Assembly: GCA_028289885.1 (NCBI GenBank)
Contig: JAQGKX010000151.1
Coordinates: 1 to 42,615 of the forward strand
Length of the DNA stretch: 42,615 nucleotides
Reading direction: 5' to 3'
Origin: Sphingomonadales bacterium
GTDB taxonomy: Bacteria; Pseudomonadota; Alphaproteobacteria; Sphingomonadales; Sphingomonadaceae
The position numbers and the translations under genes are program-made. Each line of letters opens with the position of its first letter. The stretch's first letter is position 1. Positions 4,646 through 40,420 of the stretch are shown in pieces. The notes below the pieces were generated by a model. It ran no database searches. It saw only the letters and a list, made by a program, of their open reading frames with translations, and was not told the origin of the DNA.

Positions 4646-4649
4646 ATGA
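4610..4649 (+). repeat. 8-bp inverted repeat overlapping the OPX start codon
   Basis: TCATGACT at 4610-4617 and its exact reverse complement AGTCATGA at 4642-4649 are separated by 24 nt. The second arm contains the ATG at 4646-4648. In mRNA it could form a hairpin that covers this start. It could equally be a DNA operator or chance. Confidence 0.45.
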
Positions 4650-5260
4650 GAAGGATTGTCGTGCGGTATTTCGGTTCCTCAGTCATTTTCGTGCGGTTTT
4701 TCGCGGCGCTTTCGGCCATTTGCATGTCGGTACCAGCTCTTGCGCAAGCTAATGGCGTAACGGGAACTGCCGCGCCCACTGCAAAAACCTCTTCGCCAGC
4801 GGGCGAATATCAACTTGGCGTTGGCGACAAGGTCAGGATCATCGTCTTCAATGAGCCGACCTTGTCCGGTGAATTTGCCGTCAGCGACAATGGTTCGCTG
4901 TCGGTCCCATTGATCGGTGATGTCAAGGCGAGCGGCCGTTCGTCGCAGGAGGTCGTTCTCGATATCCAAAACAAGCTGGCAGACGGGTATCTTCGGGGAC
5001 CCCAGGTAAGTCTCGACGTCCTTACCTACCGTCCTTTCTATATTCTTGGCGAAGTGTCGAAGCCAGGGGAATACCCATATTCCAGCGGGTTAACGGTCAT
5101 GAATGCCGTCGCCCGCGCCGAAGGATTTACCTATCGCGCCAACAAGCGAAAAGTATTCATTAAACATGCTGGCGAGGCAGACGAGGCCTTGGTCAAGCTG
5201 GTGCCCGACCTGGCGGTTAAGCCGGGCGATACGATCAGAATCGGTGAGCGTTATTTCTAG
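4646..5260 (+). CDS. OPX polysaccharide export protein (Wza/GumB/ExoF family, short form)
   Basis: The product (204 residues) has an N-terminal signal peptide ending near PALAQ. A Poly_export domain follows (GEYQLGVGDKVRIIVFNEP... to about residue 125), then a single SLBB-type segment (YILGEVSKPGEYPYSSGLTVMNAVARAEGF). It ends shortly after PGDTIRIGERYF. There is no C-terminal amphipathic helix of the kind that forms the outer-membrane pore in E. coli Wza, and no lipobox cysteine is evident. It should therefore act as a periplasmic or outer-membrane-attached conduit needing a partner barrel. The start is uncertain: ATG 4646 is annotated, but GTG 4661 is preceded by GAGAAGG at good spacing and still keeps a signal peptide. 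It is the first gene of the export operon. Confidence 0.93.
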   Translation: MRRIVVRYFGSSVIFVRFFAALSAICMSVPALAQANGVTGTAAPTAKTSSPAGEYQLGVGDKVRIIVFNEPTLSGEFAVSDNGSLSVPLIGDVKASGRSSQEVVLDIQNKLADGYLRGPQVSLDVLTYRPFYILGEVSKPGEYPYSSGLTVMNAVARAEGFTYRANKRKVFIKHAGEADEALVKLVPDLAVKPGDTIRIGERYF

Positions 5261-5296
5261 AAACTTCATTCATTCGGAAAGAGAACAGGGGCGGAA

Positions 5297-5752
5297 ATGA
5301 AAATTCAGCATAAAATCGTTCGCACGACGGCCTTGGCGCTTTTGATCGCCGGTGTATCGACGGGGGCTATCGGTAGTCAGGTCGCTCTGGCGCAGACTGC
5401 AGCCAGCGTTCCGGACCCGGCGGCCGTTGCCGCTCTTGTCGCCAGTCTCGAGGCTGCCATTGCGGCTCAGCCCGCAACCGCGAAACAAGCCGACGTCGAG
5501 GCCGCGATCGCGTTCACCATCGACCAGGCCAAGCAGCCCAAGGCTGTCGCGATCGCGGCGCTCAACGCGTTGAAGAAGCGCAAGAAGTGGCCGCCTGTCA
5601 TCTTGAAGGCGATTAACAGCAGCCTTGCCCTGCTCGAATCGAGCGCCGGCGGTGGTACCGGTGGCGTCGGCGGCGGAGGTGGCACGAGTGCGCTTGGTAA
5701 CGGGCCGGGTTCCGGCGGCGGCGGCGGCACCGACTATTCGACCAATCAGTGA
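5297..5752 (+). CDS. Secreted Ala-rich/Gly-rich small protein of the EPS export operon
   Basis: This 151-residue protein has a clear signal peptide (MKIQHKIVRTTALALLIAG, cleavage near ALAQ). An Ala-rich, probably helical middle follows (about 35-115; PDPAAVAALVASLEAAIAAQ), with a basic patch ALKKRKKW. The tail is low-complexity Gly-rich (about 117-145, runs of five glycines) and ends GTDYSTNQ. I recognise no domain and no catalytic motif. The gene sits between the OPX gene and the beta-barrel gene, and its stop overlaps the barrel start by one base (TGATG). That suggests translational coupling and a role at the outer membrane, perhaps in assembling the export pore. The ATG at 5297 follows a purine-rich GGGGCGGAA site. 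Confidence 0.85.
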   Translation: MKIQHKIVRTTALALLIAGVSTGAIGSQVALAQTAASVPDPAAVAALVASLEAAIAAQPATAKQADVEAAIAFTIDQAKQPKAVAIAALNALKKRKKWPPVILKAINSSLALLESSAGGGTGGVGGGGGTSALGNGPGSGGGGGTDYSTNQ

Positions 5753-7074
5753 TGAAGGTCATGGGGGGAAAAACCGCGCTGATGGGCAGGCTTAGCCTGG
5801 CGACGGTGGTGGCGTGTACACTTTCCGGCCACGCGTCGGCTCAGTCGATCAGCACGCAGGTGTTCGACTCGAACATACCGCTTACTTACGACCGGGGACG
5901 TAACGAGAGCGTAACGGACCGGGACAGGCCGGAATATGCGGCAACCGGGATTATTGCGGGGGGCTTTACCGTGCTTCCCTCGGTGACGGTGGCTGCGGGC
6001 TTTACCGACAATGTCTATCAGACTTCGACGCCGAAAACTTCGAGTGCGATTGCCACGGTCTCGCCAAAGCTGGTGGTTCAGTCGAACTGGTCGCTGAACC
6101 ACCTGCAGCTCGACGCTGCCGGTAATTTCGTTCGATATCTCAGTCAGTCGTCGCGCAACGAGGACGGATGGACCGTAGGCGGACAGGGCCGGATCGACTT
6201 GGGGGCGGACACGGCTCTGAACCTTGGTGCGCGTACCAGCCGTTTGTTCGAAACGCCTTTTTCCGGCACGGGCGTACCCATCTCGCGTAGCGCACTCCCC
6301 GTCCAGGCGACCATTTTCCAGGCGCAAACGGAGATGAAGCTTGCGCGGACACGTTTCGTGCTGTCAGCGGATCATTCGATCTACAATTACTTGCCAGCGC
6401 AGGGCTTGAACGGTGGCACATTCACGCGTGACTCGTTCGACCGAACGATCAATCGTGGCATTGGCTATGCCGAATATGGCCTGACGCCCGATGCCGGAGT
6501 GTTCGTTCAAGGAACCTACACCGATACTAACTATGGTATCCCGCTTTCGCCGGGGGTGGCCAATCGCGACTCTTCGGAGGTCAAAGGACTGGCGGGTGCC
6601 ACCTTCGACCTGACGGCATTGTTGAGGGGGAGCATTGGATTCGGCTATATAAAGCGAAGTTATGATTCGCCGCTTTACCATGATGTCCGGGGATTTTCCT
6701 TTGACGGAAAGATCGAATATTTCCCGAGCAAATTGACCACGGTCACCTTGATCGCCCGGCGCGACATCGAGGATTCGACGTTGGCGGGTTCCAGCGGCTA
6801 TTTCGACAACGGCATCGCACTCCGGGCCGACCATGAGGTTCTAAGAAACCTCATCGTCAATATCGGCGCAGATTATGAGCACGACGTGTATAGCGGGATT
6901 GTTGCGAATGCCGATATCTATCGCGTTTCAGGTGGCGCGCTTTACCTGTTGAGCCGTATGCTGCGCCTCGATGCCAACGTTGGTTATCGCCGTCGTACGA
7001 CCGATACCCCCATATTGATCGGTCCGAATATCGATGAACTTCGCGGCACATTGGGCATAACCGTCAAACTCTAA
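5752..7074 (+). CDS. Outer-membrane beta-barrel protein of the EPS export system
   Basis: The product (about 440 residues) has a signal peptide ending near GHASAQ. The rest is made of alternating amphipathic strands typical of an outer-membrane barrel, for example VTVAAGFTDNVYQTS, ARTRFVLSADHSIYNY and RLDANVGYRRRTTD, and it ends with a hydrophobic strand LRGTLGITVKL. It resembles the OMP beta-barrel proteins often found in Gum/Xag-type EPS clusters. I infer that it provides the outer-membrane pore or a docking barrel for the short OPX protein encoded two genes upstream. The start is ATG 5752, overlapping the previous stop by one base; GTG 5749 is also possible. It is followed by the BY-kinase gene after 20 nt. 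Confidence 0.85.
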   Translation: MKVMGGKTALMGRLSLATVVACTLSGHASAQSISTQVFDSNIPLTYDRGRNESVTDRDRPEYAATGIIAGGFTVLPSVTVAAGFTDNVYQTSTPKTSSAIATVSPKLVVQSNWSLNHLQLDAAGNFVRYLSQSSRNEDGWTVGGQGRIDLGADTALNLGARTSRLFETPFSGTGVPISRSALPVQATIFQAQTEMKLARTRFVLSADHSIYNYLPAQGLNGGTFTRDSFDRTINRGIGYAEYGLTPDAGVFVQGTYTDTNYGIPLSPGVANRDSSEVKGLAGATFDLTALLRGSIGFGYIKRSYDSPLYHDVRGFSFDGKIEYFPSKLTTVTLIARRDIEDSTLAGSSGYFDNGIALRADHEVLRNLIVNIGADYEHDVYSGIVANADIYRVSGGALYLLSRMLRLDANVGYRRRTTDTPILIGPNIDELRGTLGITVKL

Positions 7075-7094: not shown

Positions 7095-9254
7095 ATGGAC
7101 GCTTATACGAGTAGGGAACCTGGGGCAGCTTGGACTCCGCCCGGGCAAAACGTCGAGGTATCAAATATTTTCCGCCAGATTACGTCGATATTGCGTCGCC
7201 GCTGGTTGATGATTGCCACGATCATACTTGTGATATTCGGCGCTGCCCTGGTCACGGCGATGATGCTCACTCCAAAATACGAAGCCGTTGTGCGCATCAA
7301 GATCGATCCGTCACCGGGAGCGGCCATGGGGCAGATGTCCGAACAGACATCTTTTCCCGACCAGGCCATCGTCGATACCGAAGTCACCGTCATGCAGTCG
7401 CTGGACGTGGCGAGGTCGGTCGTCCGCAAGCTGGGTCTCGAGCGTGATCCCGAGTTCTCGCGTGGTTTGCAGCCGCTGGCGAGCAATGCGCCGCGCGCTG
7501 CTGTTGATGCGAGGCGCGACCAGGTTGCAACCGCAGTGCTCGGGGCGACGACTGCCAAGCGGGAAAAGGCGACCTATATCGTCGAGCTGACGACGGCATC
7601 CGAGGATCCGGTAAAGGCCGCCCGCATCGCCAACACGTTCGCCAGTCAATATATCGAGGCCAGTCTGGGCCGACGTTCTGGAACTGCCGAGAAGCAGGCT
7701 GGATATTTGCAGGAACAGCTGAAGACGCTGAGCCAGCAGGCGACAGCCGCCGATGCGCAGCTTACAGAATATCGTGCGCGCGCCGGGGTCATCGGTTCGG
7801 GGGGCGGTGCATCGACTTTAACAGACCAGCAGATCGCGCCTTTGGCCATGCAATTTGCCACTGCCCAGTCGGAGGCTGCTGCTGCTGCCGCTAAAATCCG
7901 GTCGGCGCAAACTCAGATTGGCGCGGGCGGCATCGGTGGCGTCTCTGCCGTGCTGAACTCGGACGTGATCCGCAATTTGCGAGCGCAGCGTGCCGTCTTG
8001 CAACAGGAACAGGGCGAGGTGATGACGCGCTATGGTCCAAAGCACCCTGAAACCCTCAAGATCACTCAGCAGCTGACCGACATCGACAATCAGATCAACG
8101 AAGAAGCCAAGCGCATCATTGCCGGCCTCGGCGCGGATGGCGGGTCGGCGAGCGCAAGAGCGCAAAGCCTTGCTTCTGATCTGGGCAAGCTGCGCGCACA
8201 GCAGGCGCGGGACACGCGTTCGTCGGCCATGGCGGACACTTACCAGCGACAGGCGGACTCCGCGCAGGCCGCCTATAATCGACTTGCCGAAAAAGCACAG
8301 GCGTCGTCACAGGCAGCAAGCAGTTCAATTGCGCTTGCCCAGATTATCGAAGACGCGGTCGCTCCAACCACGCCAAGCAAGCCGAACAAAAAATTGCTGC
8401 TGGCGGTTGGTCTGCTCGGGGCTATCGCTGCTGCCCTTGGAGCCGTGGCGATATTGGAAATCGTGAATACCGGTATAATGTCGGTGACCGACGTGCAAAA
8501 TCTCGGCCTCCAGTCGCTTGCCACCGTGCCACGGCTTTCAAAATCGCAGCGCGAGGGGGGCGAGGCTCCGGCAGATCTGATTTATTCAAAGCCCGTGGGG
8601 TCCTATGCAGAGGCGTATCGAACGGTGCGATCCTCATTGATCCTCGGTCACCAGAACGTCGCGCGGGTTATCACAATTGCGTCGACGCTGCCTGACGAGG
8701 GCAAGACCACGGCGACGTTGTCGCTGGCGCGGGTCATGGCCCTTGCCGGCGAACGGACCATTGCGATCGATTGCGATCTCAGGCGTGCCGGACTGACCAA
8801 AGCAGTCGGTCTCGTGTCGGAGCATGGCCTTATCGAAGTGCTTCGAGGCGAGGTGACGTTGGAGTCGGCAATCAAGCGAGACCCCTCGACGACGCTCGAC
8901 GTGCTGCCGCTGGCTGGGGAGGTTTTCAGCCCCGAGGATATGTTCAGCGGCGATGCCATGCCAAACTTGCTTGCCAAGTTGCGTGAACGATATGACCATA
9001 TTATCCTCGACACCCCTCCATTGCTGGGCGTTGCCGATGCGCGATCGCTGGCGGTTATGTCGGACGCCGTTGCGATGGTGATCAAATGGAATGCCACGCC
9101 ACGCAATGCGGTTCGCGCGGCATTGGAGATGCTCCGCCATGACGAGGCGAATCTCGTCGGCGCAATCCTGTCGATGGTCGATCGGTCGACGGAAGCCTAT
9201 GGCGCGCTCTATTACTCCCAGAAATATACGAATTATTACAAGGAAAGTGCTTGA
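7095..9254 (+). CDS. Polysaccharide co-polymerase with BY-kinase domain (Wzz/Wzc/GumC-ExoP type)
   Basis: A single 719-residue protein combines a chain-length determinant with a bacterial tyrosine kinase. The N-terminal Wzz domain has a membrane helix (about 37-58) and a long periplasmic coiled-coil-like region rich in Ala/Gln (about 190-420). A Pro-rich motif (APTTPSKPNKK) precedes the second helix (about 433-455). The cytoplasmic kinase shows Walker A (PDEGKTT, Lys537), Walker A' (AIDCDLRR, Asp559/Asp561) and Walker B (IILDTPP, Asp639). It ends with a Tyr cluster YGALYYSQKYTNYYK, the autophosphorylation tail. It controls Wzy-dependent polymer length. No Wzb-type phosphatase gene is seen in the window. 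The downstream gene overlaps its stop by 4 nt. Confidence 0.96.
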   Translation: MDAYTSREPGAAWTPPGQNVEVSNIFRQITSILRRRWLMIATIILVIFGAALVTAMMLTPKYEAVVRIKIDPSPGAAMGQMSEQTSFPDQAIVDTEVTVMQSLDVARSVVRKLGLERDPEFSRGLQPLASNAPRAAVDARRDQVATAVLGATTAKREKATYIVELTTASEDPVKAARIANTFASQYIEASLGRRSGTAEKQAGYLQEQLKTLSQQATAADAQLTEYRARAGVIGSGGGASTLTDQQIAPLAMQFATAQSEAAAAAAKIRSAQTQIGAGGIGGVSAVLNSDVIRNLRAQRAVLQQEQGEVMTRYGPKHPETLKITQQLTDIDNQINEEAKRIIAGLGADGGSASARAQSLASDLGKLRAQQARDTRSSAMADTYQRQADSAQAAYNRLAEKAQASSQAASSSIALAQIIEDAVAPTTPSKPNKKLLLAVGLLGAIAAALGAVAILEIVNTGIMSVTDVQNLGLQSLATVPRLSKSQREGGEAPADLIYSKPVGSYAEAYRTVRSSLILGHQNVARVITIASTLPDEGKTTATLSLARVMALAGERTIAIDCDLRRAGLTKAVGLVSEHGLIEVLRGEVTLESAIKRDPSTTLDVLPLAGEVFSPEDMFSGDAMPNLLAKLRERYDHIILDTPPLLGVADARSLAVMSDAVAMVIKWNATPRNAVRAALEMLRHDEANLVGAILSMVDRSTEAYGALYYSQKYTNYYKESA
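9240..9247 (+). promoter_or_regulatory. Ribosome binding site supporting a TTG start at 9251
   Basis: AAGGAAAG lies inside the end of the BY-kinase gene. Its GG core sits about 7 nt before TTG 9251, which overlaps the kinase stop as TTGA. Confidence 0.6.
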
Positions 9255-9916
9255 ACGACCGGCCTGACAAGGCCGGGGGCAACGCTCGCGTCCATCGCTC
9301 GATTTGCGCATGTGCGCTGGTTGTAATGCTGTTGGTCGCGGGCAAGGCGTTATCCGATGAAATCTTCGTGGCCCGGATGCGTTTGCTGGCACAGGCTAGT
9401 CCGGGGTATGCGGCCATAGCATTAGCTGTCCCGAACGACACCGCGCCCACTTCCATCCCGGCGCGCGCGGCGCTGTATCTGGCACTGGCATCGGGTCGCG
9501 CCGCCTCGGTAAACGATTTTGGCGATCACCGCTCGGCCTTGGTCAAAGCTGCCGCGGCAAACGTCGCGGCCGCAAAGGATTGCCGCCCCTATTGGGGAGA
9601 GGCGGACGTGGCACAAACATATATCGACATGATCGCGTCCGGCCCGACCTCTCCGACGACCGTATCAAGTCTCGGTCGATCCTATGCGTCCGGGCCGTAC
9701 CTCGATGATGCCGCACCCTGGAGGCTGGTGCTGGCGGTCGAAAGTTGGCCCCAACTCGACGCGGCGACCCGGGGTCGTTCGGTTGACGAGGCGTTATGGT
9801 TGAGCGGCAGATCGGGAGCCAAGTATAATATTGTCCAGTCTATCCTGGGTGCCAGCGCCATGAACGACGAGGTTCGGGCGCGGCGTAATTCCTACCTTGC
9901 CCGTCCGTCATCCTGA
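9251..9916 (+). CDS. Single-pass membrane protein of unknown function coupled to the BY-kinase
   Basis: This 221-residue protein is not recognised as any family. It has one hydrophobic segment (about 17-34, SICACALVVMLLVAGKAL) behind a basic N-terminus. A largely helical Ala-rich domain follows, containing two cysteines (one in CACAL, one in KDCRPYWGE) and several conserved-looking tryptophans. It probably faces the periplasm. The TTG start overlaps the kinase stop by 4 nt and has a good ribosome binding site, so translation is likely coupled. Its 3' end overlaps the convergent O-antigen-ligase-like gene by 25 nt. Position suggests an accessory role in polymerisation or export; the exact role is unknown. 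Confidence 0.8.
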   Translation: MNDRPDKAGGNARVHRSICACALVVMLLVAGKALSDEIFVARMRLLAQASPGYAAIALAVPNDTAPTSIPARAALYLALASGRAASVNDFGDHRSALVKAAAANVAAAKDCRPYWGEADVAQTYIDMIASGPTSPTTVSSLGRSYASGPYLDDAAPWRLVLAVESWPQLDAATRGRSVDEALWLSGRSGAKYNIVQSILGASAMNDEVRARRNSYLARPSS

Positions 9917-11265
9917 TCGACAGCCAACTGCCCTGACTGGCGATCCGCCCGCGTCCTGATGGAGCGGCCCCAGATCAGCGACGCGAGGAAAACGGTAAGC
10001 CCGAAAACCGCCGGCACATCCAGCTGTATATCGACCATCGACGTCGCACCGATCAGTATCACCGAAACGATCGCCCCGCGTAACAATGGGTCCTGCCGAT
10101 CGGTCCGTTGCGAAGCCGCAGCGCGCCGGGCCATCAGGACAAATGCCAACACCAGCAGTCCGAGATACGGTATCCCTCCTGCCAGCATCAGCGAAATTGC
10201 AGCGTTGTGCGGAGCGTGCAGATACCAGAACGACATCGCTTCGACCGGGCTGCCCAGACTGTGCAGATTGATCTCATCGAACGAGGACGGGCCATATCCG
10301 ATCCAGGGCGATTGCAGGACAATCTGCCAATAGTGGGAAAAGATTTCCAGCCGTCCGGTTCCGTCCTGGCCAAACGACGCAAAGCGGCTGATCGTCATCT
10401 CGCCAGCCACCGCAGTCAGAAAAGCGATCGCAACAGCACCGGTTGCCACGCTTATCGCACCGATCCAGCTGAGCGCGGCGTTGCGAAGCGCTCTGTCGCC
10501 AACAGCCAATCCGATCAGGCACACTGCCAGTAATGACAAAACCGTTCGCGATCCTGTGGCGGCGCAGGCGGCGATCCCCATCACGCAACCGAGCAGGCCG
10601 ACAAACCACCAGATTGCAGCACTTCCGCTGACCGGCCCGCCACGCGCCACCCGCAGGCTGGCAAGAACGCTGGTCAGCCCCAGGATCGCAGTTACCGCAC
10701 ACAGTGACGCATTTGAATTTGCGTTCAACAGCGTCCCCGTAAACCGCCCCCCCATAATATTCTTGTCATATCCCCAGACGTGCGCAGGATCGATCTGACG
10801 AAGCGCAGCCCCCACGCCGATTGCAACAATTCCCAGGGCTAGGATCCATTGCAGCGCCTCCCGCATGAGCCCACGACGATACCCGATCCATGCGCCAGCG
10901 AGCAGCAAGGCGAGATTGCCGAACACTTTCACGATTCCGGGAAGGAACATATCGGGGGCTGGCCGTTTTGGTGCCCATAGGAAAGCCGTGGGGATGAGCG
11001 CGGGCGCACAAAGCCAGCAGACGGCTGCGCAAATTATCGCAATAACCGGCCACGTCTGACGCCAGAATCGAGCATCGGGAGCGGCAAGGAACAGCACCAC
11101 CAGAGCCGCCAGAATATCGGAGAACGCCGCTGCTACGGCGAGCAACGGGCCGTTGGACCCAAGCATCATCTGTTGGACGAACAACAAAAGGGGGACGACG
11201 AGTGCCGTCGTCCTCACGCGACCCGACATCGATCGTACCGTCTGCCCCGTCATCTTCGCCCCCAT
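9892..11265 (-). CDS. O-antigen ligase/Wzy-like membrane protein
   Basis: A polytopic inner-membrane protein (457 residues) with about ten to twelve hydrophobic segments and a large loop near residues 300-350. That loop carries GTGRLEIFSHYWQIVLQSPWIGYG and the motif HAPHNAAISLMLAGG, the signature of the Wzy_C/O-antigen ligase superfamily. Members either polymerise lipid-linked repeat units (Wzy) or ligate glycans to an acceptor (WaaL). A second protein of this superfamily is encoded at 17421-18701, so one may be polymerase and the other a ligase or modifying enzyme; sequence alone does not decide. The start is ATG 11265; an in-frame ATG at 11253 is also possible. It is monocistronic on the minus strand and divergent from the next glycosyltransferase. 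Confidence 0.88.
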   Translation of the reverse strand: MGAKMTGQTVRSMSGRVRTTALVVPLLLFVQQMMLGSNGPLLAVAAAFSDILAALVVLFLAAPDARFWRQTWPVIAIICAAVCWLCAPALIPTAFLWAPKRPAPDMFLPGIVKVFGNLALLLAGAWIGYRRGLMREALQWILALGIVAIGVGAALRQIDPAHVWGYDKNIMGGRFTGTLLNANSNASLCAVTAILGLTSVLASLRVARGGPVSGSAAIWWFVGLLGCVMGIAACAATGSRTVLSLLAVCLIGLAVGDRALRNAALSWIGAISVATGAVAIAFLTAVAGEMTISRFASFGQDGTGRLEIFSHYWQIVLQSPWIGYGPSSFDEINLHSLGSPVEAMSFWYLHAPHNAAISLMLAGGIPYLGLLVLAFVLMARRAAASQRTDRQDPLLRGAIVSVILIGATSMVDIQLDVPAVFGLTVFLASLIWGRSIRTRADRQSGQLAVDQDDGRAR

Positions 11266-16338: not shown

Positions 16339-17424
16339 CTATGTCCGGCTCAAAATCTTGATCCGTCGCCGCAATGGAACATCAAATATTACGAGGGAAG
16401 TCCAGGACGCTAAGGCTACCCCCGGAAATGCAGACACGAAAACGAAGCCTTCACCTAAATGGAATAGGTGAGAAACTTGCCGTAACATTGCTATTATAGG
16501 AACGTGCAACATGTAAACTGGAAACGACAATTTACCAAGTAGCACCATTACTCGAGAGGTTAGACCTGATGGCTCCGATCGGGAAGCTACGATAATCAAC
16601 GCGGGAAAGACGGTCAGAACAATCAAGGACGAAGCCCATCCAAAAAGACTGTAGTATGGGCAAAACAAGATTCCAAAAAACATAAGACACAGCAGTAACG
16701 GGGAGATTTTCGGTACCCACTGAACCCGCTCTTTTGCAAGGCACAACCAACTCCCGACACTGAAGCCAAATACGGCTCGAACTAATCCATGGTAAAACGA
16801 TTCCCACTCTGCCCCAAAGTCGAGCGTCCCAGCATCTATCGAGAAGAATATTAGCAATAATCCTGTTATCAGGACTGTGATTGGCAGTATTCTCCGCCAA
16901 ATCATAATGTTATAGGCGAACAAGAGATTTGCTATCAATTCAAGTAAAAGGGACCAAGCTGGAATGTTCAACGGATAAAGGTAAGACGCCCCTGTTGAAA
17001 AGTTTGGTGCCATAAAAAAAGCGAAGATCGCGACAAGGTTGAAAGGCTGGTCACGAGACGCATTGTGGCCAAAATAATGTCCCCCGAACCATGATGCGAC
17101 GCCAAGCACGGTTCCGAGAAGATATAACGGATACAATCGCAGAAATCTTGCAATCATAAATCGCCCGGGCGTTAGTTCGCCCGATCTCAGCACATTAAAG
17201 TATCTGAGTGTAATGACGAAGCCAGACAATGAAAAGAACAAATCAACGCTAAGATAAGCAGATGGTATTAACCGGGTGGTGGTCAAATGATAACTAACCA
17301 CGCATAGGGCCGCGATGCCACGCAACCCCTCCAGCGTAACAAGAAGCCCGTGGTCCTGCGTAGCTTGAGTTCTCCCCGCGTGGGACATGGCCTCCAAGGG
17401 CAGGGATGATCTCATCTCGTTCAT
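16339..17424 (-). CDS. Acyltransferase 3 family membrane protein
   Basis: This polytopic membrane acyltransferase (361 residues, about ten helices) lacks an SGNH domain. Recognition motifs are LEGLRGIAALCVVSYHL (R...H), YLSVDLFFSLSGFVITLRY and PLNIPAWSLLLELIANLLFAY. It ends with VFDVPLRRR-like sequence (IFDVPLRRRIK). It probably transfers an acyl group (acetyl, pyruvyl-like or succinyl) to the growing EPS or its lipid-linked unit. Its start overlaps the stop of the upstream Wzy-like gene by 4 nt (ATGA), so the two are translationally coupled. Base composition is AT-rich relative to the rest of the locus. Confidence 0.94.
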   Translation of the reverse strand: MNEMRSSLPLEAMSHAGRTQATQDHGLLVTLEGLRGIAALCVVSYHLTTTRLIPSAYLSVDLFFSLSGFVITLRYFNVLRSGELTPGRFMIARFLRLYPLYLLGTVLGVASWFGGHYFGHNASRDQPFNLVAIFAFFMAPNFSTGASYLYPLNIPAWSLLLELIANLLFAYNIMIWRRILPITVLITGLLLIFFSIDAGTLDFGAEWESFYHGLVRAVFGFSVGSWLCLAKERVQWVPKISPLLLCLMFFGILFCPYYSLFGWASSLIVLTVFPALIIVASRSEPSGLTSRVMVLLGKLSFPVYMLHVPIIAMLRQVSHLFHLGEGFVFVSAFPGVALASWTSLVIFDVPLRRRIKILSRT

Positions 17425-18701
17425 GGCTTAGGCCCACTCGATGCCTCAAAAGGTGACAAGCCGGGGCGGTCGTGGCGTACCTTTCTCAGCATTACTGATC
17501 CCCAGGTAAGCCAGAAGACGCCGGCAGTTCCTGGCTCGGAGAAGGTCGACTCGGAAATTGACCGAACTAAAATAAAGATCAATATCAGGACCGGTAGCAA
17601 GGCAGCATCGACACGTTTCGATACGAGTTTGAAGCCCAAACGTAGCGATCGCACAAAATCCAGAATTATCAGTACAACGGCGACTAAACCCATTTGCAGC
17701 CACAAATCCAACCAGGTATTATGACCATTCAAGGGCTTAAACCCGGCGGCCGACCAGATTCCAATCCTATCTGGCGTGTCATACGCCCAGAAGTTAAAAC
17801 CATATCCAGTCCATGGGCTTTTCTGGATTAATATCCAAACTGCGGCCCAGATCGGTGTCCGCCCTGTCAAATCCCCACTTCGTCCCGCAATGTTTTCAAA
17901 CAGGTTGGGCACTGCAATGAGGAGCAAAACAATTGTTGCCGTCAAAGCCGTTATAGCTGCAACTGTAATCAAGACGGCTGCCCTAGGCACGCGCCCGAGA
18001 AACGTGATGACGGTGAACAGGGTACCCACAACCAAAAGACCCGTTATCGCCGTAATGGAGTTTGACATTATGATCATGACAACACTTGGAATGATCGTAG
18101 CTGATGCAAATGAAAGAGATATCGATTTTGTTTGGTAAGCACAAATGGTGACGATTAGCCCAAGTCCATACGCGAATCCCGCCGCATTTTTGTCGGTTAA
18201 AGCTCCGCGCCAAAGAGATTCATAAGCACCAAAATAATTGCTCAATCCATATTGAGGAAAAACAATCGCCATAAATATCGAAAGGACTGAAGATATAAAG
18301 AAGGCAATTGTGAAGTTTCTGTAAGTCTTTCTAACTGTTGTTATTTGGCTGAATAATATGCCGAAGCCCACTACTGGGAGTAAACGTAAACTGCGGTTCA
18401 GTGACGACGCAGGATCGGGTGAGTAAGTTGTGGATATGAATGCAATTAAGACAAATGCATACACAAGAAAGTCATGGTAGAAGGGGTTCTCACGATCTCG
18501 CATCAACAGCATTACGCCGATACTCGTTGTAAATAGCAACAGCAGCCATGGCATAATATCCGATTTACCAAACTGTAGATTGGTAACGCCGATGCTCTGG
18601 AAGTATGCATCGGGAGTGTAGAACGTCCCGATTACGGGGACGGTTACCATCATTACCATCCAAAGATCGACCAACCCGAAGCTACGTATTTGACCTTTCA
18701 T
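17421..18701 (-). CDS. O-antigen ligase/Wzy-type polymerase candidate
   Basis: A 426-residue inner-membrane protein with ten or more hydrophobic segments. Its large loop has GDLTGRTPIWAAVWILIQKSPWTGYGFNFW and, further on, LNGHNTWLDLWLQMGLV. This matches the Wzy_C/O-antigen ligase superfamily and is especially close to EPS polymerases of the ExoQ type (GRTPIW...SPWTGYG). I favour this gene as the repeat-unit polymerase because it lies in the same operon as the flippase and the acyltransferases. It is among the most AT-rich genes in the window: 18061-18120 has 21 G+C of 60. It is coupled by ATGA to the downstream acyltransferase. Confidence 0.9.
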   Translation of the reverse strand: MKGQIRSFGLVDLWMVMMVTVPVIGTFYTPDAYFQSIGVTNLQFGKSDIMPWLLLLFTTSIGVMLLMRDRENPFYHDFLVYAFVLIAFISTTYSPDPASSLNRSLRLLPVVGFGILFSQITTVRKTYRNFTIAFFISSVLSIFMAIVFPQYGLSNYFGAYESLWRGALTDKNAAGFAYGLGLIVTICAYQTKSISLSFASATIIPSVVMIIMSNSITAITGLLVVGTLFTVITFLGRVPRAAVLITVAAITALTATIVLLLIAVPNLFENIAGRSGDLTGRTPIWAAVWILIQKSPWTGYGFNFWAYDTPDRIGIWSAAGFKPLNGHNTWLDLWLQMGLVAVVLIILDFVRSLRLGFKLVSKRVDAALLPVLILIFILVRSISESTFSEPGTAGVFWLTWGSVMLRKVRHDRPGLSPFEASSGPKP

Positions 18702-23353: not shown

Positions 23354-23475
23354 CGGCACTTCTTCTCGTCGGAGTGCGGCTTGCTGCACCTGCGAACAAC
23401 GGATACCATTACGGGGATCGATTGGACAGGGGCTGATGACATGTTGCGAAACAATTGTCCGAAAGGTTGCAGTTC
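23354..23475. promoter_or_regulatory. Divergent promoter region between deacetylase and GH10 operons
   Basis: This 122-nt gap separates the starts of two divergent EPS operons, so both promoters must lie in or near it. I see no clear consensus boxes by eye. Confidence 0.45.
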
Positions 23476-24600
23476 GTGATCACGCGACGGAGGGCCTTGG
23501 TTGCAGCCGCAACCGTTGGTTTGACGGGGGTTTTGGTTGGCACTTCTCTGACGGAAGCACGTTCTTACGGTGACTCTTTGAAACGGCGCGCACGGCGAAG
23601 CGGGCGGAGTTTCGGATTCGAGATCGATTCAAAAACATTGCCAAAAAGTAGCGCGATGCGGAATATCGTTGCAGAACAAGCCGACGTCATTGTCGCGGGA
23701 TTTGAGATGAAATGGTGGGCTGTCGAGCCATCGCAGGGAACATTTGACTTTAGCAGGGCGCAGACCCTGGTCGATTTTGCCAGACATCGGCATCTGCAGG
23801 TCAGGGGGCACGCCGCCATGTGGTATCGTGCGATCCCGCAATGGGCCGTCACCGATATCCGCGGTCCGAAGGCAATCGACGCGATGACCACTCATGTTCG
23901 GCAAGTCGTCGGTCATTGGCGCGGACAATTGATTGAATGGGACGTCGTGAACGAAGCCATCGAACCCGCCGACGATCTCCCCGGCGGATTGCGGAAAGCG
24001 CCATTCGGACGCGAAATGGGTTACGATTGGATAGAACAATGTTTTCGCGCCGCGCACGAAGCAGATCCGCAAGCAAAACTATACTATAATGAATTTGGGA
24101 TAGAGGAAGACCTGCCCGCGAGCGAGGTCAAGCGCAGGGCCGTTCTGGCGTTACTGGCAGAAATGAAGAAGCGTAATGTGCCGATCCACGGACTGGGTAT
24201 TCAGTCTCATCTGGCGGTGGTTAGGCCTTTCAGTTCGACGGTCTTTCGAAGATTTCTGCAGGACGTTGCCGCCATGGGACTGAAAATCCGGCTTACCGAA
24301 TTCGACGTGTCGGGTCATAAGATCCTCGGTCCCGAAATGTGGCGGGACGGGCGAATTGCCTCCCGCGCCAAGACCTACCTCGAAACCGCGTTCGATGAAG
24401 CGGCAGTCGTTGGTCTGGTCTGCTGGGGCGTCCGCAACCAGGATAGCTGGCTCCAGTCGGAAGAGTGGGCGCGTCCCCCCGGTGCCCCACCCCTGAGACC
24501 TCTGCCTTATGACGATGCGTTCAAGCCAACACCTCTATGGTCTGCAATCGCACAAGCGTTCGACGGCGCGCCGCAACGCACGGGCATCGCCAGGGCATGA
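23476..24600 (+). CDS. Secreted GH10-family endo-glycanase (xylanase-like)
   Basis: A single-domain GH10 protein (374 residues) behind a Tat-like signal (TRRRALVAAATVGLTGVLVG). Fold motifs include FEMKWWAVEPSQGTFDF, VRGHAAMWY, the acid/base WDVVNEA (Glu160), YYNEFGIEE, GIQSHL, the nucleophile in RLTEFDV (Glu275) and CWGVRNQDSWL. In typical xylanases the third loop reads GHTLVWH; here the His is Tyr (GHAAMWY), so the substrate may not be xylan. In an EPS operon it more likely trims or releases the EPS than feeds on plant xylan. GTG 23476, with AAAGG upstream, is chosen; TTG 23455 is a weaker alternative. Its stop overlaps the next gene's ATG (ATGA). Confidence 0.92.
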   Translation: MITRRRALVAAATVGLTGVLVGTSLTEARSYGDSLKRRARRSGRSFGFEIDSKTLPKSSAMRNIVAEQADVIVAGFEMKWWAVEPSQGTFDFSRAQTLVDFARHRHLQVRGHAAMWYRAIPQWAVTDIRGPKAIDAMTTHVRQVVGHWRGQLIEWDVVNEAIEPADDLPGGLRKAPFGREMGYDWIEQCFRAAHEADPQAKLYYNEFGIEEDLPASEVKRRAVLALLAEMKKRNVPIHGLGIQSHLAVVRPFSSTVFRRFLQDVAAMGLKIRLTEFDVSGHKILGPEMWRDGRIASRAKTYLETAFDEAAVVGLVCWGVRNQDSWLQSEEWARPPGAPPLRPLPYDDAFKPTPLWSAIAQAFDGAPQRTGIARA

Positions 24601-33358: not shown

Positions 33359-34261
33359 GTGCTTACGGCCACCGGTTCACCATTCTCAATTCTACGCGCG
33401 CTGCCGGTCATGCTGGCAGCGACGGCGACCCCATGTCTGGCGGGGCACACTGCCCAGCCATTTTTATCGCTGGGTGACAGGATCGACGTTCCCCGCGGCT
33501 TTGCCGAAATGTGCACGACGACAAAGGATTTCTGTTCGACGACACCGGCAAGCGCCGATACTGCGATCGTAACTGCTGCCCTGGCGGCACCACAAGGCGC
33601 GCTGTCATCGGGTGCGGGGTTTTCAACCTCGGCGCTGGCTCTGGGCGGGATGGCTATCGTGTCTTCGGCCCCAAACGCGTTGAGCGCGGCTGCTGCTGCC
33701 GGCGATTGTCGTCACGCGCCGGAAATCTCTCCCAGTCGCGTGACGAGCTTTTTCTCGTTCGAGGATAGCGCAGATCGTTACTCCGACATGACCTGTGCCG
33801 TCCTTGCCGAGGTCGTGGCCAGCCCGGTGCCAGTGGCAGCATCGCTCCCCCCATCGACGGCTGTTTCGCTTGCCCCACAAGCAAGTGCCAAGCTGCTCAA
33901 GCGCGTCAACCGCTATGTCAATTCGCGCGTTCAGCAACGCACCGACTTCCAGATTTATGCGCGCGATGAATTATGGGTCCGCAGCGGGGTCGGCCCACAG
34001 GCAATGGGAGATTGCGAGGATATTGCGATCGAAAAGCGCTACGAACTTATCAATGCGGGCTACCCCGCCGATCGTCTGACGTTTGCGGTCGTTTACTCAA
34101 ACGCAAGCGGACTTCATACCGTTCTTCTCGCCAAGACCGACGACGGCGATGTCGTGCTGGACAGCCGGTCACCCTATATTCGGCCATGGTCCGAAGTGGG
34201 ATATAGCTGGATCAGCGTCCAGACTGCAGCCGATCCAATGATTTGGCGACGCGTGGTCTAA
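33359..34261 (+). CDS. Transglutaminase-like cysteine peptidase (BTLCP, LapG-like)
   Basis: A secreted 300-residue protein. The C-terminal domain (about 180-300) is a bacterial transglutaminase-like cysteine proteinase. It has LLKRVNRYVNSRVQQRTDF, the catalytic Cys219 in MGDCEDIAIEKRYELINAGYP, His253 in SGLHTVLLAKT and Asp268 in VVLDSRSPYIRPW. LapG, the best known member, cleaves a giant adhesin under control of LapD; neither is in the window. The N-terminal 170 residues are an Ala/Ser-rich region after a signal peptide. GTG 33359 has GAGGAG eight bases upstream. Many sphingomonad EPS clusters carry a BTLCP gene nearby, in my recollection; its target here is unknown. Confidence 0.9.
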   Translation: MLTATGSPFSILRALPVMLAATATPCLAGHTAQPFLSLGDRIDVPRGFAEMCTTTKDFCSTTPASADTAIVTAALAAPQGALSSGAGFSTSALALGGMAIVSSAPNALSAAAAAGDCRHAPEISPSRVTSFFSFEDSADRYSDMTCAVLAEVVASPVPVAASLPPSTAVSLAPQASAKLLKRVNRYVNSRVQQRTDFQIYARDELWVRSGVGPQAMGDCEDIAIEKRYELINAGYPADRLTFAVVYSNASGLHTVLLAKTDDGDVVLDSRSPYIRPWSEVGYSWISVQTAADPMIWRRVV

Positions 34262-37433: not shown

Positions 37434-38825
37434 ATGCGTAAGGTTTTCTGTGCAGCTTTTGTCGCGGCTATGCTTGCAGGAAGTGCGATGGCGGCACCTG
37501 CCGCTCATCCAAAGGCCGAGACGCAGGCGCTCGAACTCGCAAAGCAGGCGATAGCGTTGCGGTCGGTACGCGGACCCGGCAACCAGACTCCACAGGTCGC
37601 CGCGCTGTACAAGACAGCCTTGGTCGGCGGCGGGTTTGCCGATGCCGACGTCACGATCACGCCCGTGGACGACACGGTCTATCTGATCGCGCGTTGGCCC
37701 GGCAGCGATCCGAAGCTGAAACCGCTTGTGATCTCGGGTCACATGGATGTGGTCGAAGCCAAGCCCGCCGACTGGAAGCGTGACCCGTTCACGCCCGTGG
37801 TCGAGAATGGCTATCTGTTCGGGCGCGGTGCCACCGACATGAAACTGGACGGCACGATCGCGATAGCCTCGCTGATCGAACTCAAGCAATCGGGCTACAA
37901 GCCGCGCCGCGACATCATCATCGAGTTTTCCGGAGACGAGGAAACGGTGATGAAGACGAGCGCGATCATCGCCGAAAAGCTGTCCAATGCCGATCTCGTG
38001 CTCAACATCGACGGCGGTGGCGGGTCGCTGAACGAGCAGACCGGCAAGCCCGAATATTGGACGTGGCAGGGTGCCGAAAAAACCTATGCGGATTTCGAGA
38101 TGACCGTGACCAATCCCGGCGGACATTCGTCTGCCCCGCGCAAGAGCAATGCGATCAACCAGCTTTCGGCGGCGCTGATCCGGATCGGCAATTATCAATT
38201 CAAGCCCGAGGTGAGCGACCTGACGCGCGCTTATTTCGCGCAGGCCGCACGATATGAGGATGCCGAGACCGGTCCCGCGATGCGCGTGTTTGCGGAGAAC
38301 CCCAACGATGCAAAGGCAATTGCCACGCTGACCGCAAATCCATCGACCATCGGCAAGATCGGGACGACCTGCGTGGTGACGATGATCAACGGTGGCCATG
38401 CCACCAACGCGCTGCCGCAACGCGCGACGGCCAACATCAACTGCCGCATTTTCCCCGGGCATAAGCCAGCCGATATCATGGCAGAACTCCAGCGCGTCGC
38501 CGCCGATCCTGCGGTTGCTTTCAAGGATGTGACCGAGGGATCTGTTGCCAATGACGCGTCGCCGATGCGGCCCGATTTCACGGCAGCGGTGACCAGGGCG
38601 ATGGGCATCATCAATCCGGGCTTACCGGTGTTCCCGAGCCAGTCTTCCGGTGCCAGCGACAGCATGTGGTTCCGCTATCACCACGTCCCGAGCTATGGCG
38701 CGAGCCCGGTGTTCATAAAGGATTCGGAGGATTTCAGTCACGGCCTGAACGAGCGGACGCCGATTTCCAACATCGCACCGGCGATCACATATTATCTGTC
38801 GCTGTTCACGGATCTGTCGAAATAG
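37434..38825 (+). CDS. Secreted M20-family metallopeptidase
   Basis: This 463-residue peptidase has a signal peptide (MRKVFCAAFVAAMLAGSAMAA) and therefore acts in the periplasm or outside. It has the M20 zinc-site residues: His103 and Asp105 in SGHMDVVE, Asp135 in GRGATDMKLDG, Glu169-Glu170 in SGDEETVM, and a late His in SEDFSHGLNER. A dimerisation domain (about 220-330; TNPGGHSSAPRKSNA) is inserted as in carboxypeptidase G2/DapE-like enzymes. It probably removes residues from short peptides. ATG 37434 has GGAGGAG seven bases upstream; the frame is open further upstream to 37392 without support. A TPR-sulfotransferase gene follows two bases after the stop. Confidence 0.95.
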   Translation: MRKVFCAAFVAAMLAGSAMAAPAAHPKAETQALELAKQAIALRSVRGPGNQTPQVAALYKTALVGGGFADADVTITPVDDTVYLIARWPGSDPKLKPLVISGHMDVVEAKPADWKRDPFTPVVENGYLFGRGATDMKLDGTIAIASLIELKQSGYKPRRDIIIEFSGDEETVMKTSAIIAEKLSNADLVLNIDGGGGSLNEQTGKPEYWTWQGAEKTYADFEMTVTNPGGHSSAPRKSNAINQLSAALIRIGNYQFKPEVSDLTRAYFAQAARYEDAETGPAMRVFAENPNDAKAIATLTANPSTIGKIGTTCVVTMINGGHATNALPQRATANINCRIFPGHKPADIMAELQRVAADPAVAFKDVTEGSVANDASPMRPDFTAAVTRAMGIINPGLPVFPSQSSGASDSMWFRYHHVPSYGASPVFIKDSEDFSHGLNERTPISNIAPAITYYLSLFTDLSK

Positions 38826-38827
38826 CC

Positions 38828-40420
38828 GTGGTTGCCGGGAACGCCGCCGCCGCCATAGCAGCGGGTATATATGATCCGCAGTTGATGGAGGCGGCGCTGG
38901 CGCTGCACGACAATCGACTGTCGGACGCCGAACCGCTGCTTCGCGCGCATCTGAAGGCCGATCCGTTCGACGTCGCCGCAATCCGCATGATGGCTGAACT
39001 GGCCGGGAGGATAGGGCGGTACAAGGACGCCGAAAACCTGCTGCGCCGCGCGCTGGAACTCGCGCCCGAATTCGGGGCGGCGCGGGCCAATCTTGCGACA
39101 TGCCTTTACCGGCAGAACAGGGCGATCGACGCGATTGCGGAACTCGACCTGCTGTTGCGCGAGGAGCCGGAGAACCTCGGCCACGCCAATATGAAGGCGG
39201 CGGCGCTGGGGCAGGTCGGCGGGTTCGAGGAGGCCATCGAGCTGTACGAACTGATCCTGCCACAGGCCCCCGACCAACCCAAATTATGGATGAGTTACGG
39301 ACATACGCTGAAAACCGTTGGGCGACAGGAGGATGGCATAGCGGCATACCGGCGCGCGCTGTCGATTGCGCCGACGTTGGGCGAAGTTTGGTGGAGTCTG
39401 GCCAACCTCAAGACGGTGAAATTCACCGCAGCCGATGTCGTCGCAATGGAGGCTGCGCTGGCGACGCCGGGCCTTGCCGATCCAGACAAATTCCACCTCG
39501 ATTTCGCTTTGGGCAAGGCATATGAGGACGCCCGCTCGTATGAGATGGCGTTCGCCCATTATGCCGCGGGCAATGCCCTGCGGCGGCAAAGCATCGTCTA
39601 TGACGCCGCGGAAACCAGCAGCTTCGTCGACCGGAGCATAGCAATTGCGACCCCCGCCCTGTTCTCCGCGCACCGCGATGAAGGTTGCCCGGCACGCGAT
39701 CCGATCTTCATTCTGGGAATGCCGCGCGCGGGATCGACGTTGGTCGAGCAAATCCTGTCGAGCCACAGCAAGGTCGAGGGGACGTCCGAACTATCCGATA
39801 TGCCGACGCTTGCCCGACGGGCGGATAATTATCCGGAAAACCTGACCGATATCGCGCCGGAGACACTGCGCGCGCTGGGACAGGAATATCTCGACCGCAC
39901 CCGGGTCCAGCGCAAGACCGACAAGCCGCTGTTCATCGACAAGCTGCCGAACAATTGGGCCCATGTGCCGTTCATCCACTTGATCCTGCCCAACGCGACG
40001 ATCATCGACGCGCGCCGTCATCCGATAGGGTGCTGTTTTTCGAACTTCAAACAGCATTTCGCGCGGGGTCAGGCGTTCAGCTATGGGCTCGACGACATGG
40101 GACGTTATTACGCCGACTATGTCCGCCTGATGGCGCACATCGATGCCATTCTGCCGGGCCGCGTACACCGGGTCGACTACGAGAATATGATCGACGATAC
40201 CGAGGCAGAAGTGCGCGCGTTGCTCACTGCCTGTGGCCTCGACTATGAAGAGCAATGCCTGCGTTTCCATGAAAACGCTCGCGCCGTTCGTACGGCCTCG
40301 TCCGAACAGGTGCGACGACCGATTTTCAGGGATGGAACCGAGGGCTGGCAGGGATTCGAGCCGTGGCTGGGGCCGTTGAAGGAGGCGCTCGGCGATGTGC
40401 TCATTGCCTATCCATCATAG
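38828..40420 (+). CDS. TPR-repeat protein with sulfotransferase domain
   Basis: A 530-residue cytoplasmic protein. The N-terminal half (about 15-210) carries tetratricopeptide repeats (AEPLLRAHLKADPFDVAAIRMMAELAGRIGRYKDAENLLRRALELAPEF and similar). The C-terminal half (about 290-525) is a sulfotransferase fold: 5'-phosphosulfate loop FILGMPRAGSTLVEQILSSH (about 294-313), FIDKLPNNWAHVPFI and 3'-phosphate region IIDARRHPIGCCFSNF. It likely sulfates a small molecule or peptide using PAPS. GTG 38828 starts two bases after the M20 stop; there is no strong ribosome binding site, and ATG 38885 is the alternative. The next gene is a TonB-dependent receptor, a pairing often seen in sphingomonads. Confidence 0.92.
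   Translation: MVAGNAAAAIAAGIYDPQLMEAALALHDNRLSDAEPLLRAHLKADPFDVAAIRMMAELAGRIGRYKDAENLLRRALELAPEFGAARANLATCLYRQNRAIDAIAELDLLLREEPENLGHANMKAAALGQVGGFEEAIELYELILPQAPDQPKLWMSYGHTLKTVGRQEDGIAAYRRALSIAPTLGEVWWSLANLKTVKFTAADVVAMEAALATPGLADPDKFHLDFALGKAYEDARSYEMAFAHYAAGNALRRQSIVYDAAETSSFVDRSIAIATPALFSAHRDEGCPARDPIFILGMPRAGSTLVEQILSSHSKVEGTSELSDMPTLARRADNYPENLTDIAPETLRALGQEYLDRTRVQRKTDKPLFIDKLPNNWAHVPFIHLILPNATIIDARRHPIGCCFSNFKQHFARGQAFSYGLDDMGRYYADYVRLMAHIDAILPGRVHRVDYENMIDDTEAEVRALLTACGLDYEEQCLRFHENARAVRTASSEQVRRPIFRDGTEGWQGFEPWLGPLKEALGDVLIAYPS

Follow-up and report, generated by a model that had tools for sequence, protein, structure and literature searches.

The window analysed here comprises 42,615 nucleotides from base 1 onward of contig JAQGKX010000151.1 (C53 in our numbering) of a Sphingomonadales bacterium (assembly GCA_028289885.1; 211 contigs with a total of 3.08 Mb, completeness 84%). 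It carries an exopolysaccharide (EPS) locus in which the gene for a small secreted protein, here called GLY, lies between the genes for a short OPX protein and a separate outer-membrane beta-barrel. Our analysis showed that GLY represents a real, undescribed and restricted protein family and that, by its distribution in the loci examined, it occurs or is missing together with three further genes, namely HYP, a convergent gene of the Wzy_C family (Wzy) and a cysteine protease of the BTLCP family. The explanation that we consider the best overall, and to which we give about an even chance, is that of a composite pore with an optional accessory or regulatory module, in which GLY is a candidate substrate of the protease.

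Searches with the GLY sequence yielded 14 distinct members from at least four genera, the named genomes among the relatives of the locus being those of Sphingomonas. All 14 have an OPX gene on one side and a barrel gene on the other, the three sharing one strand, which answers the question, raised in a preliminary description of this DNA, whether the family always occupies this position. Because the same slot recurs in 13 other loci and one pair of closely related members has a dN/dS of 0.10, the gene is regarded as real and a chance open reading frame (ORF) as ruled out; another pair is more relaxed (0.57). The preliminary description had suggested that the protein may be an undescribed plug, adaptor or assembly factor, roles that stay hypothetical. 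No convincing relative was found in Pfam (best E 0.0021, each family being matched by only one of the 14 members), in NCBIfam for the window copy (best E 0.16) or in the PDB, where the best match, a capsid protein (E 0.018), is taken as chance. No relatives were found in viral contigs either, and a viral home of the gene was rejected on this basis. A search of the literature in full text, with subscription journals mostly outside its reach, found no description of GLY or of a tie between GLY and a BTLCP.

The window copy contains 18 glycines in its last 45 residues versus three in the first 106, and its TGA stop codon (5750-5752) overlaps the start of the barrel gene (GTG 5749 or ATG 5752); the Gly-rich tail and the overlap are as in the preliminary description. 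As the hallmark of a family, however, glycine-richness holds only in part: the tail and the slot recur, whereas the number of glycines in the last 45 residues ranges from 6 to 18 among the members. The conserved elements are a helical-looking domain, a G-T-[AG]-A-[IV] motif at the border between the helical-looking part and the tail, a proline, and a GG(S)SNY-like C-terminal tail with a tyrosine. In the alignment of all 14 members the first glycine of the motif is invariant and the threonine is present in 13; the tyrosine of the tail is invariant, 11 members fit the tail pattern, a twelfth (L089) does so by eye, and two S. faeni-type tails deviate.

One could regard GLY as a passenger that takes no part in export, as prmB of Sphingomonas LM7 appears to be under laboratory conditions. 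This 64-aa protein is encoded directly before a barrel gene and its deletion leaves the colonies mucoid, while deletion of the adjoining barrel gene prmC or OPX gene prmD abolishes EPS (PMC11340318). The likeness to GLY is one of position, in that a small gene adjoins barrel and OPX genes, and the order in LM7 (PHPT, small protein, barrel, OPX) is different. GLY also evolves fast, with a mean identity of 0.29 among 12 members. Yet the slot has been kept in 14 loci of at least four genera together with the invariant tyrosine and the conserved tail, and one pair is under purifying selection, and we consider a mere passenger distinctly unlikely.

The members were collected from several samples. 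The single GLY sequence gave matches in 14 of 298 genomes of the family, three of which were confirmed; the remaining 11 were weak matches, absent from the five genomes matched by the first GLY profile among 397 genomes of the family, and were dropped without individual reading of their loci. A scan of GTDB species genomes gave three loci, two of them new. GLY was matched in nine of 121 genomes of one genus (eight real), and in 1 of 10, 1 of 3 and 2 of 7 genomes of three smaller genera. The profile match L092 (G728; E 5e-4) was rejected as a false GLY, with no OPX or barrel gene nearby.

The two neighbours of GLY agree with the preliminary description as well, which had proposed a composite pore whose barrel crosses the membrane. 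The OPX protein, with Poly_export and one SLBB, ends in its second domain: its residues 51-178 align with residues 61-201 of the 359 of Wza (2j58_A). Since the alignment stops at Wza 201 and only 26 OPX residues remain, the later domains and the C-terminal helix of Wza have no counterpart. Its closest match in the PDB, 9n9a_A (a chain of 186 aa), is likewise a short export protein. The barrel, two genes on, is a full-length BBP2_2 protein of 441 aa when counted from the GTG (PF10082, 281.8 bits over residues 60-439). Schwabe et al. 2022 (PMC9601211) counted 1,230 OPX proteins no longer than 280 aa, found a coupled barrel for 453, and put forward a composite translocon; Saidi et al. 2022 (PMC9603273) write of Class 3 OPX proteins and Wzp porins. 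The window locus has the features of such a translocon, with an OPX protein of at most 280 aa that carries Poly_export and, as judged from its sequence, no C-terminal helix, a barrel gene within five genes of it, and polysaccharide biosynthesis genes nearby (the polysaccharide co-polymerase, PCP; two Wzy_C proteins; a flippase; a sugar transferase). By homology, the barrel can soundly be taken as the probable pore. The general scheme of a short OPX protein with a separate barrel is already published in these two sources, and this half of the proposal is not new.

The window locus resembles EpsY/EpsX and WzaX/WzpX of Myxococcus and VpsN/VpsM of Vibrio in its short OPX protein without a membrane-spanning helix and its neighbouring barrel gene (PMC9601211, PMC9603273); a Wzc-like PCP is also present in its operon. 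It differs from these systems by the third secreted protein between OPX and barrel and by the BTLCP, and its barrel is of the BBP2_2 family. The OPX proteins of all 14 GLY loci end in ERYF, ERFF, ERLF or ERYL (window 5246-5257), a possible barrel-contact motif; similar but more varied ends (ERHF, ERWF) occur in OPX proteins without GLY. A search of the window's own genome for OPX proteins gave five matches, two of them on contigs C106 and C143 near 61.5 kb.

Several related loci lack GLY. In eleven loci with related barrels (14 kb each) the OPX gene directly abuts the barrel gene, and the distance from the OPX stop to the beginning of barrel homology is 14-248 nt in 16 GLY-less loci, L063 and L065-L067 among them (15 places, since L063 and L103 are the same). 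A tree of 29 barrels unites 14 GLY-bearing with 8 GLY-less rows (a group of 22, support 91/89), in which the GLY-less rows fall into three groups. The proportion of 8 in 22 is no frequency, as the GLY-bearing rows were sought by GLY and the others were the top barrel matches; the seven outgroup rows were chosen by hand, and the overlong barrel starts of G355 and G653 were kept untrimmed. Since homologous OPX-barrel loci, including 8 of the 22 barrels of this group, lack the gene, GLY is not a generally required part of the pore, and a role as general pore component is ruled out. The preliminary description had named homologous loci that lack the Gly-rich gene and secrete normally as evidence that would speak against its proposal; as far as the absence of the gene goes, such loci do exist, which counts in part against the proposal. 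A single clade of all GLY-bearing barrels was rejected (approximately unbiased test, p 1.35e-6), and four changes of GLY presence are needed on the tree. Loss in several lineages after a single gain is the simplest reading, and the tree is also compatible with a transfer by which the core entered other loci.

HYP and Wzy accompany GLY, and both were absent from the preliminary description, as was the linked BTLCP. In each of the 14 GLY loci HYP follows the PCP gene, as found with phmmer, which recovered the copies of L105, L110 and L111 that tblastn had missed. The HYP and GLY profiles found no match in the 11 GLY-less loci and in 8 further barrel loci (one of them a repeated place). HYP, which has no family match, is an undescribed protein with a membrane anchor as judged by eye; SY..APFL..WR and EAVWL-like stretches are conserved in it. 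All 12 GLY loci with enough flank contain the convergent Wzy. There are two Wzy_C proteins in the one EPS cluster, of which the first (9892-11265) is conserved with the GLY module, and one of the two may be a ligase rather than a polymerase. For the window Wzy, Wzy_C is the sole match over the cut-off, so that ligase and polymerase are indistinguishable.

The window BTLCP scores far enough for family membership (118.5 bits to PF06035 with a cut-off of 27), and its matches in the PDB are 4u65 (E 1.7e-4) and 4fgo (E 5.9e-4), which we take to be LapG of Pseudomonas and Legionella. A BTLCP was found in 12 of 12 GLY-bearing genomes, S. faeni and PP-F2F-A104-K0414 being left out as their flanks span only 6 kb. 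Each genome has one copy, which shares its contig with GLY at a distance of 0.8 to about 28 kb (10 of 12 within 6.5 kb), and all 12 show the Cys-His-Asp triad in the form of GDCED, GLH and VLD. None of 28 GLY-less genomes, picked for related barrels or a shared genus, has a BTLCP.

In addition, the BTLCPs linked to GLY are, by their sequences, a distinct subfamily that is absent elsewhere among the 25 non-GLY loci compared (37 loci in total, 3 without a match left out). They score 99-185 bits to the window copy, itself excluded, versus at most 52 bits for 22 BTLCPs without GLY, and they have GLH at the catalytic histidine in 12 of 12 cases versus 0 of 22, the triad residues being kept in all 22 too. 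The BTLCPs of G027 and G046 reach 110 and 106 bits in Pfam, yet score just 41 and 52 bits against the window copy. BTLCPs outside those 25 loci reach no more than 92.2 bits in Pfam, below the 102.6 of the lowest GLY-linked copy.

Published work on two members of the protease family bears on its function. LapG, a distant relative, cuts LapA between Ala108 and Ala109, with a product beginning AGPSAAGTGG (PMC3032545), and in P. aeruginosa it has CdrA as a target (PMC4694147). HvyA (CCNA_00166), encoded in a capsule export locus of Caulobacter, prevents capsulation in G1 cells and requires its catalytic residues; its overexpression left abundance and migration of five export proteins unchanged (PMC4241560). 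The window BTLCP belongs to the same family as LapG, with Asp-Cys-Glu around the catalytic cysteine, and differs in that the LapA-type retention module (NF033682) was found in none of the 12 GLY-bearing genomes. This is a weak test, as none of 14 controls scored over the cut-off and two scored below it; within its reach, no LapA-like substrate was found. With HvyA it shares the placement in a polysaccharide export locus and the catalytic triad, whereas the consulted part of the Caulobacter paper mentions no GLY-like gene in that locus.

The mechanism that we favour is the following. The locus makes an exopolysaccharide of the Wzx/Wzy type. Homology supports a periplasmic OPX protein of the D1D2 type that passes the polymer to a separate BBP2_2 barrel spanning the outer membrane. 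By its distribution in the loci examined, GLY stands outside the general pore, as one part of an optional module of GLY, HYP, the conserved Wzy and the BTLCP around the OPX-barrel-PCP core. It is most likely periplasmic, at the junction of OPX and barrel, where its conserved C-terminal tail may hold it via a flexible linker, and it might gate or tune export. By analogy with HvyA and the Caulobacter capsule, the BTLCP probably acts on the export machinery, with GLY as its likeliest substrate, cut near G-T-[AG]-A; we put this cleavage step forward tentatively and as rather doubtful. Because of the conserved small-residue motif at the border of domain and tail, and with no LapA module found, GLY is the best candidate substrate that can be named. 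In its most specific form, GLY would be a dedicated substrate of the BTLCP, i.e. a small tethered gate of the pore whose cleavage at G-T-[AG]-A switches between export and retention of the polysaccharide, and thus a sphingomonad answer to the target of HvyA, with an unrelated Ala-rich protein (see below) playing the same part in a second type of locus. This we hold to be unlikely, its probability being lowered by the weak LapA control and by BTLCP-OPX loci without GLY.

Proteases of the LapG type release surface proteins (PMC3032545, PMC4694147), which would also suit a GLY that leaves the cell along with the polymer and serves in the matrix or as an anchor, perhaps as a polymer acceptor for the conserved Wzy_C enzyme (the tail of GLY holds serine), so that the BTLCP would release polymer from the surface. 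The signal-peptide-like start, the Gly/Ser-rich tail ending in GGSSNY and the conservation of Wzy with GLY in 12 of 12 loci are in line with this, but the sole match to Wzy_C leaves the ligase activity it calls for indistinguishable from that of a polymerase. We consider such a function very improbable.

Several observations weigh against the favoured mechanism. In the wider sample of 397 genomes, 100 have a BTLCP and only five of these have GLY; G156 and G168, GLY-less genomes of the larger barrel tree outside the rows of the pair test, hold BTLCPs as well. In four loci (L150, L151, L154 and L156) a BTLCP lies beside an OPX gene without GLY. Given these four loci and the BTLCPs in 95 of 392 GLY-less genomes, a BTLCP does not need GLY. 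In favour of the tie, the BTLCP state changes with GLY on the barrel tree in four of four independent pairs (p 0.125), which is too few for significance. GLY distances across the 12 genomes correlate with those of every gene compared, the barrel being highest (r 0.70, partial 0.39 given PCP) and the BTLCP lower (0.49, partial 0.25), so that they support co-inheritance as much as contact with the protease; indeed, co-inheritance of the whole locus would explain the tie without any contact. The proposed site itself varies, with strict TAA in 6 of 14 members, TGA in 4 and other residues in 4, the window having GTGGV and one member GIAQI. The weakness of the LapA result and, by position, the small gene of LM7 that is dispensable for mucoid colonies have been mentioned. 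Finally, GLY was found in only one of 240 genomes drawn from the class, namely the window's own, a result that does not extend to Caulobacter itself.

The best correlation with the barrel, the fixed slot between OPX and barrel and the overlap of stop and start codons in the window would suit a structural role of GLY in this barrel subtype, be it as adaptor, plug or assembly chaperone; the protease would then act elsewhere and be linked only since the locus moves as a unit. Against this, GLY is missing beside eight related barrels within its tree group, the GLY-less loci examined also lack HYP, and the 28 chosen genomes lack a BTLCP; we regard such a role as rather doubtful.

As a lead only, two of the four BTLCP-OPX loci show a parallel to the proposed substrate module. 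In L150 (6295-7212, plus strand) and L151 (12624-13400, minus strand), Ala-rich, repeat-bearing secreted proteins are encoded directly upstream of a barrel gene. Both loci also carry a BTLCP of another subfamily, an OPX gene and a phosphatase-like gene (named by eye), a layout like that of the hvyA locus, for which a metallophosphatase is listed (PMC4241560), and seemingly closer to it than the window. The Ala-rich proteins had no significant profile match to GLY and are rejected as its homologues. ORFs of this kind were found by an ORF filter in none of 17 GLY-less barrel loci (at 16 places, of which two belong to the genome of the window). L154 and L156 contain BTLCP, OPX and phosphatase genes, and no barrel gene within the stretch fetched.

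From position 4646, the genes for OPX, GLY, barrel, PCP and HYP form a same-strand run of five, followed by Wzy on the opposite strand (Table 1). Other EPS genes in the window encode a flippase-type protein, a sugar transferase, an acyltransferase and a polysaccharide deacetylase; some further genes were named by eye. A GH10 hydrolase is also part of the promonan cluster of Sphingomonas LM7 (prmN; PMC11340318). The TPR-sulfotransferase protein may sulfate a surface polymer, or it may be unrelated.

Table 1. Features of the EPS locus in the window
Feature	Position	Strand	Evidence
Short OPX protein, Poly_export and one SLBB, D1D2 type, 204 aa, ending ...GERYF	4646..5260	+	PF02563 74.5 bits
GLY, small secreted protein, 151 aa; signal-peptide-like start and helical-looking domain (both by eye), Gly-rich tail	5297..5752	+	
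GLY family motif G-T-[AG]-A-[IV], window version GTGGV	5654..5668	+	alignment of 14
GLY C-terminal tail motif, window GGTDY, family GG(S)SNY	5723..5737	+	alignment of 14
Outer-membrane beta-barrel, BBP2_2, proposed pore, start GTG 5749 or ATG 5752	5749..7074	+	PF10082 E 9.9e-84
PCP with tyrosine autokinase domain, Wzc-like, 719 aa	7095..9254	+	
HYP, 221 aa, N-terminal membrane anchor (by eye)	9251..9916	+	
Wzy_C-family polymerase/ligase, convergent	9892..11265	-	
Second Wzy_C protein	17421..18701	-	
GH10 family hydrolase within the EPS cluster	23455..24600		
BTLCP (Peptidase_C93), LapG/HvyA-like cysteine protease	33359..34261	+	PF06035 118.5 bits
TPR-sulfotransferase protein near the EPS cluster	38666..40420		

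While the design of the pore is known, the family of small secreted proteins with its constant position between OPX and barrel genes is new, and so is its close link with a LapG/HvyA-like protease. The mode by which HvyA stops capsulation in Caulobacter was left open in the 2014 paper, and in its consulted part the capsule-related target of this protease family is not named (PMC4241560); GLY is a candidate for such a target. If GLY is indeed the substrate, a change of its size on a blot would offer a direct test of proteolytic control of polysaccharide export.

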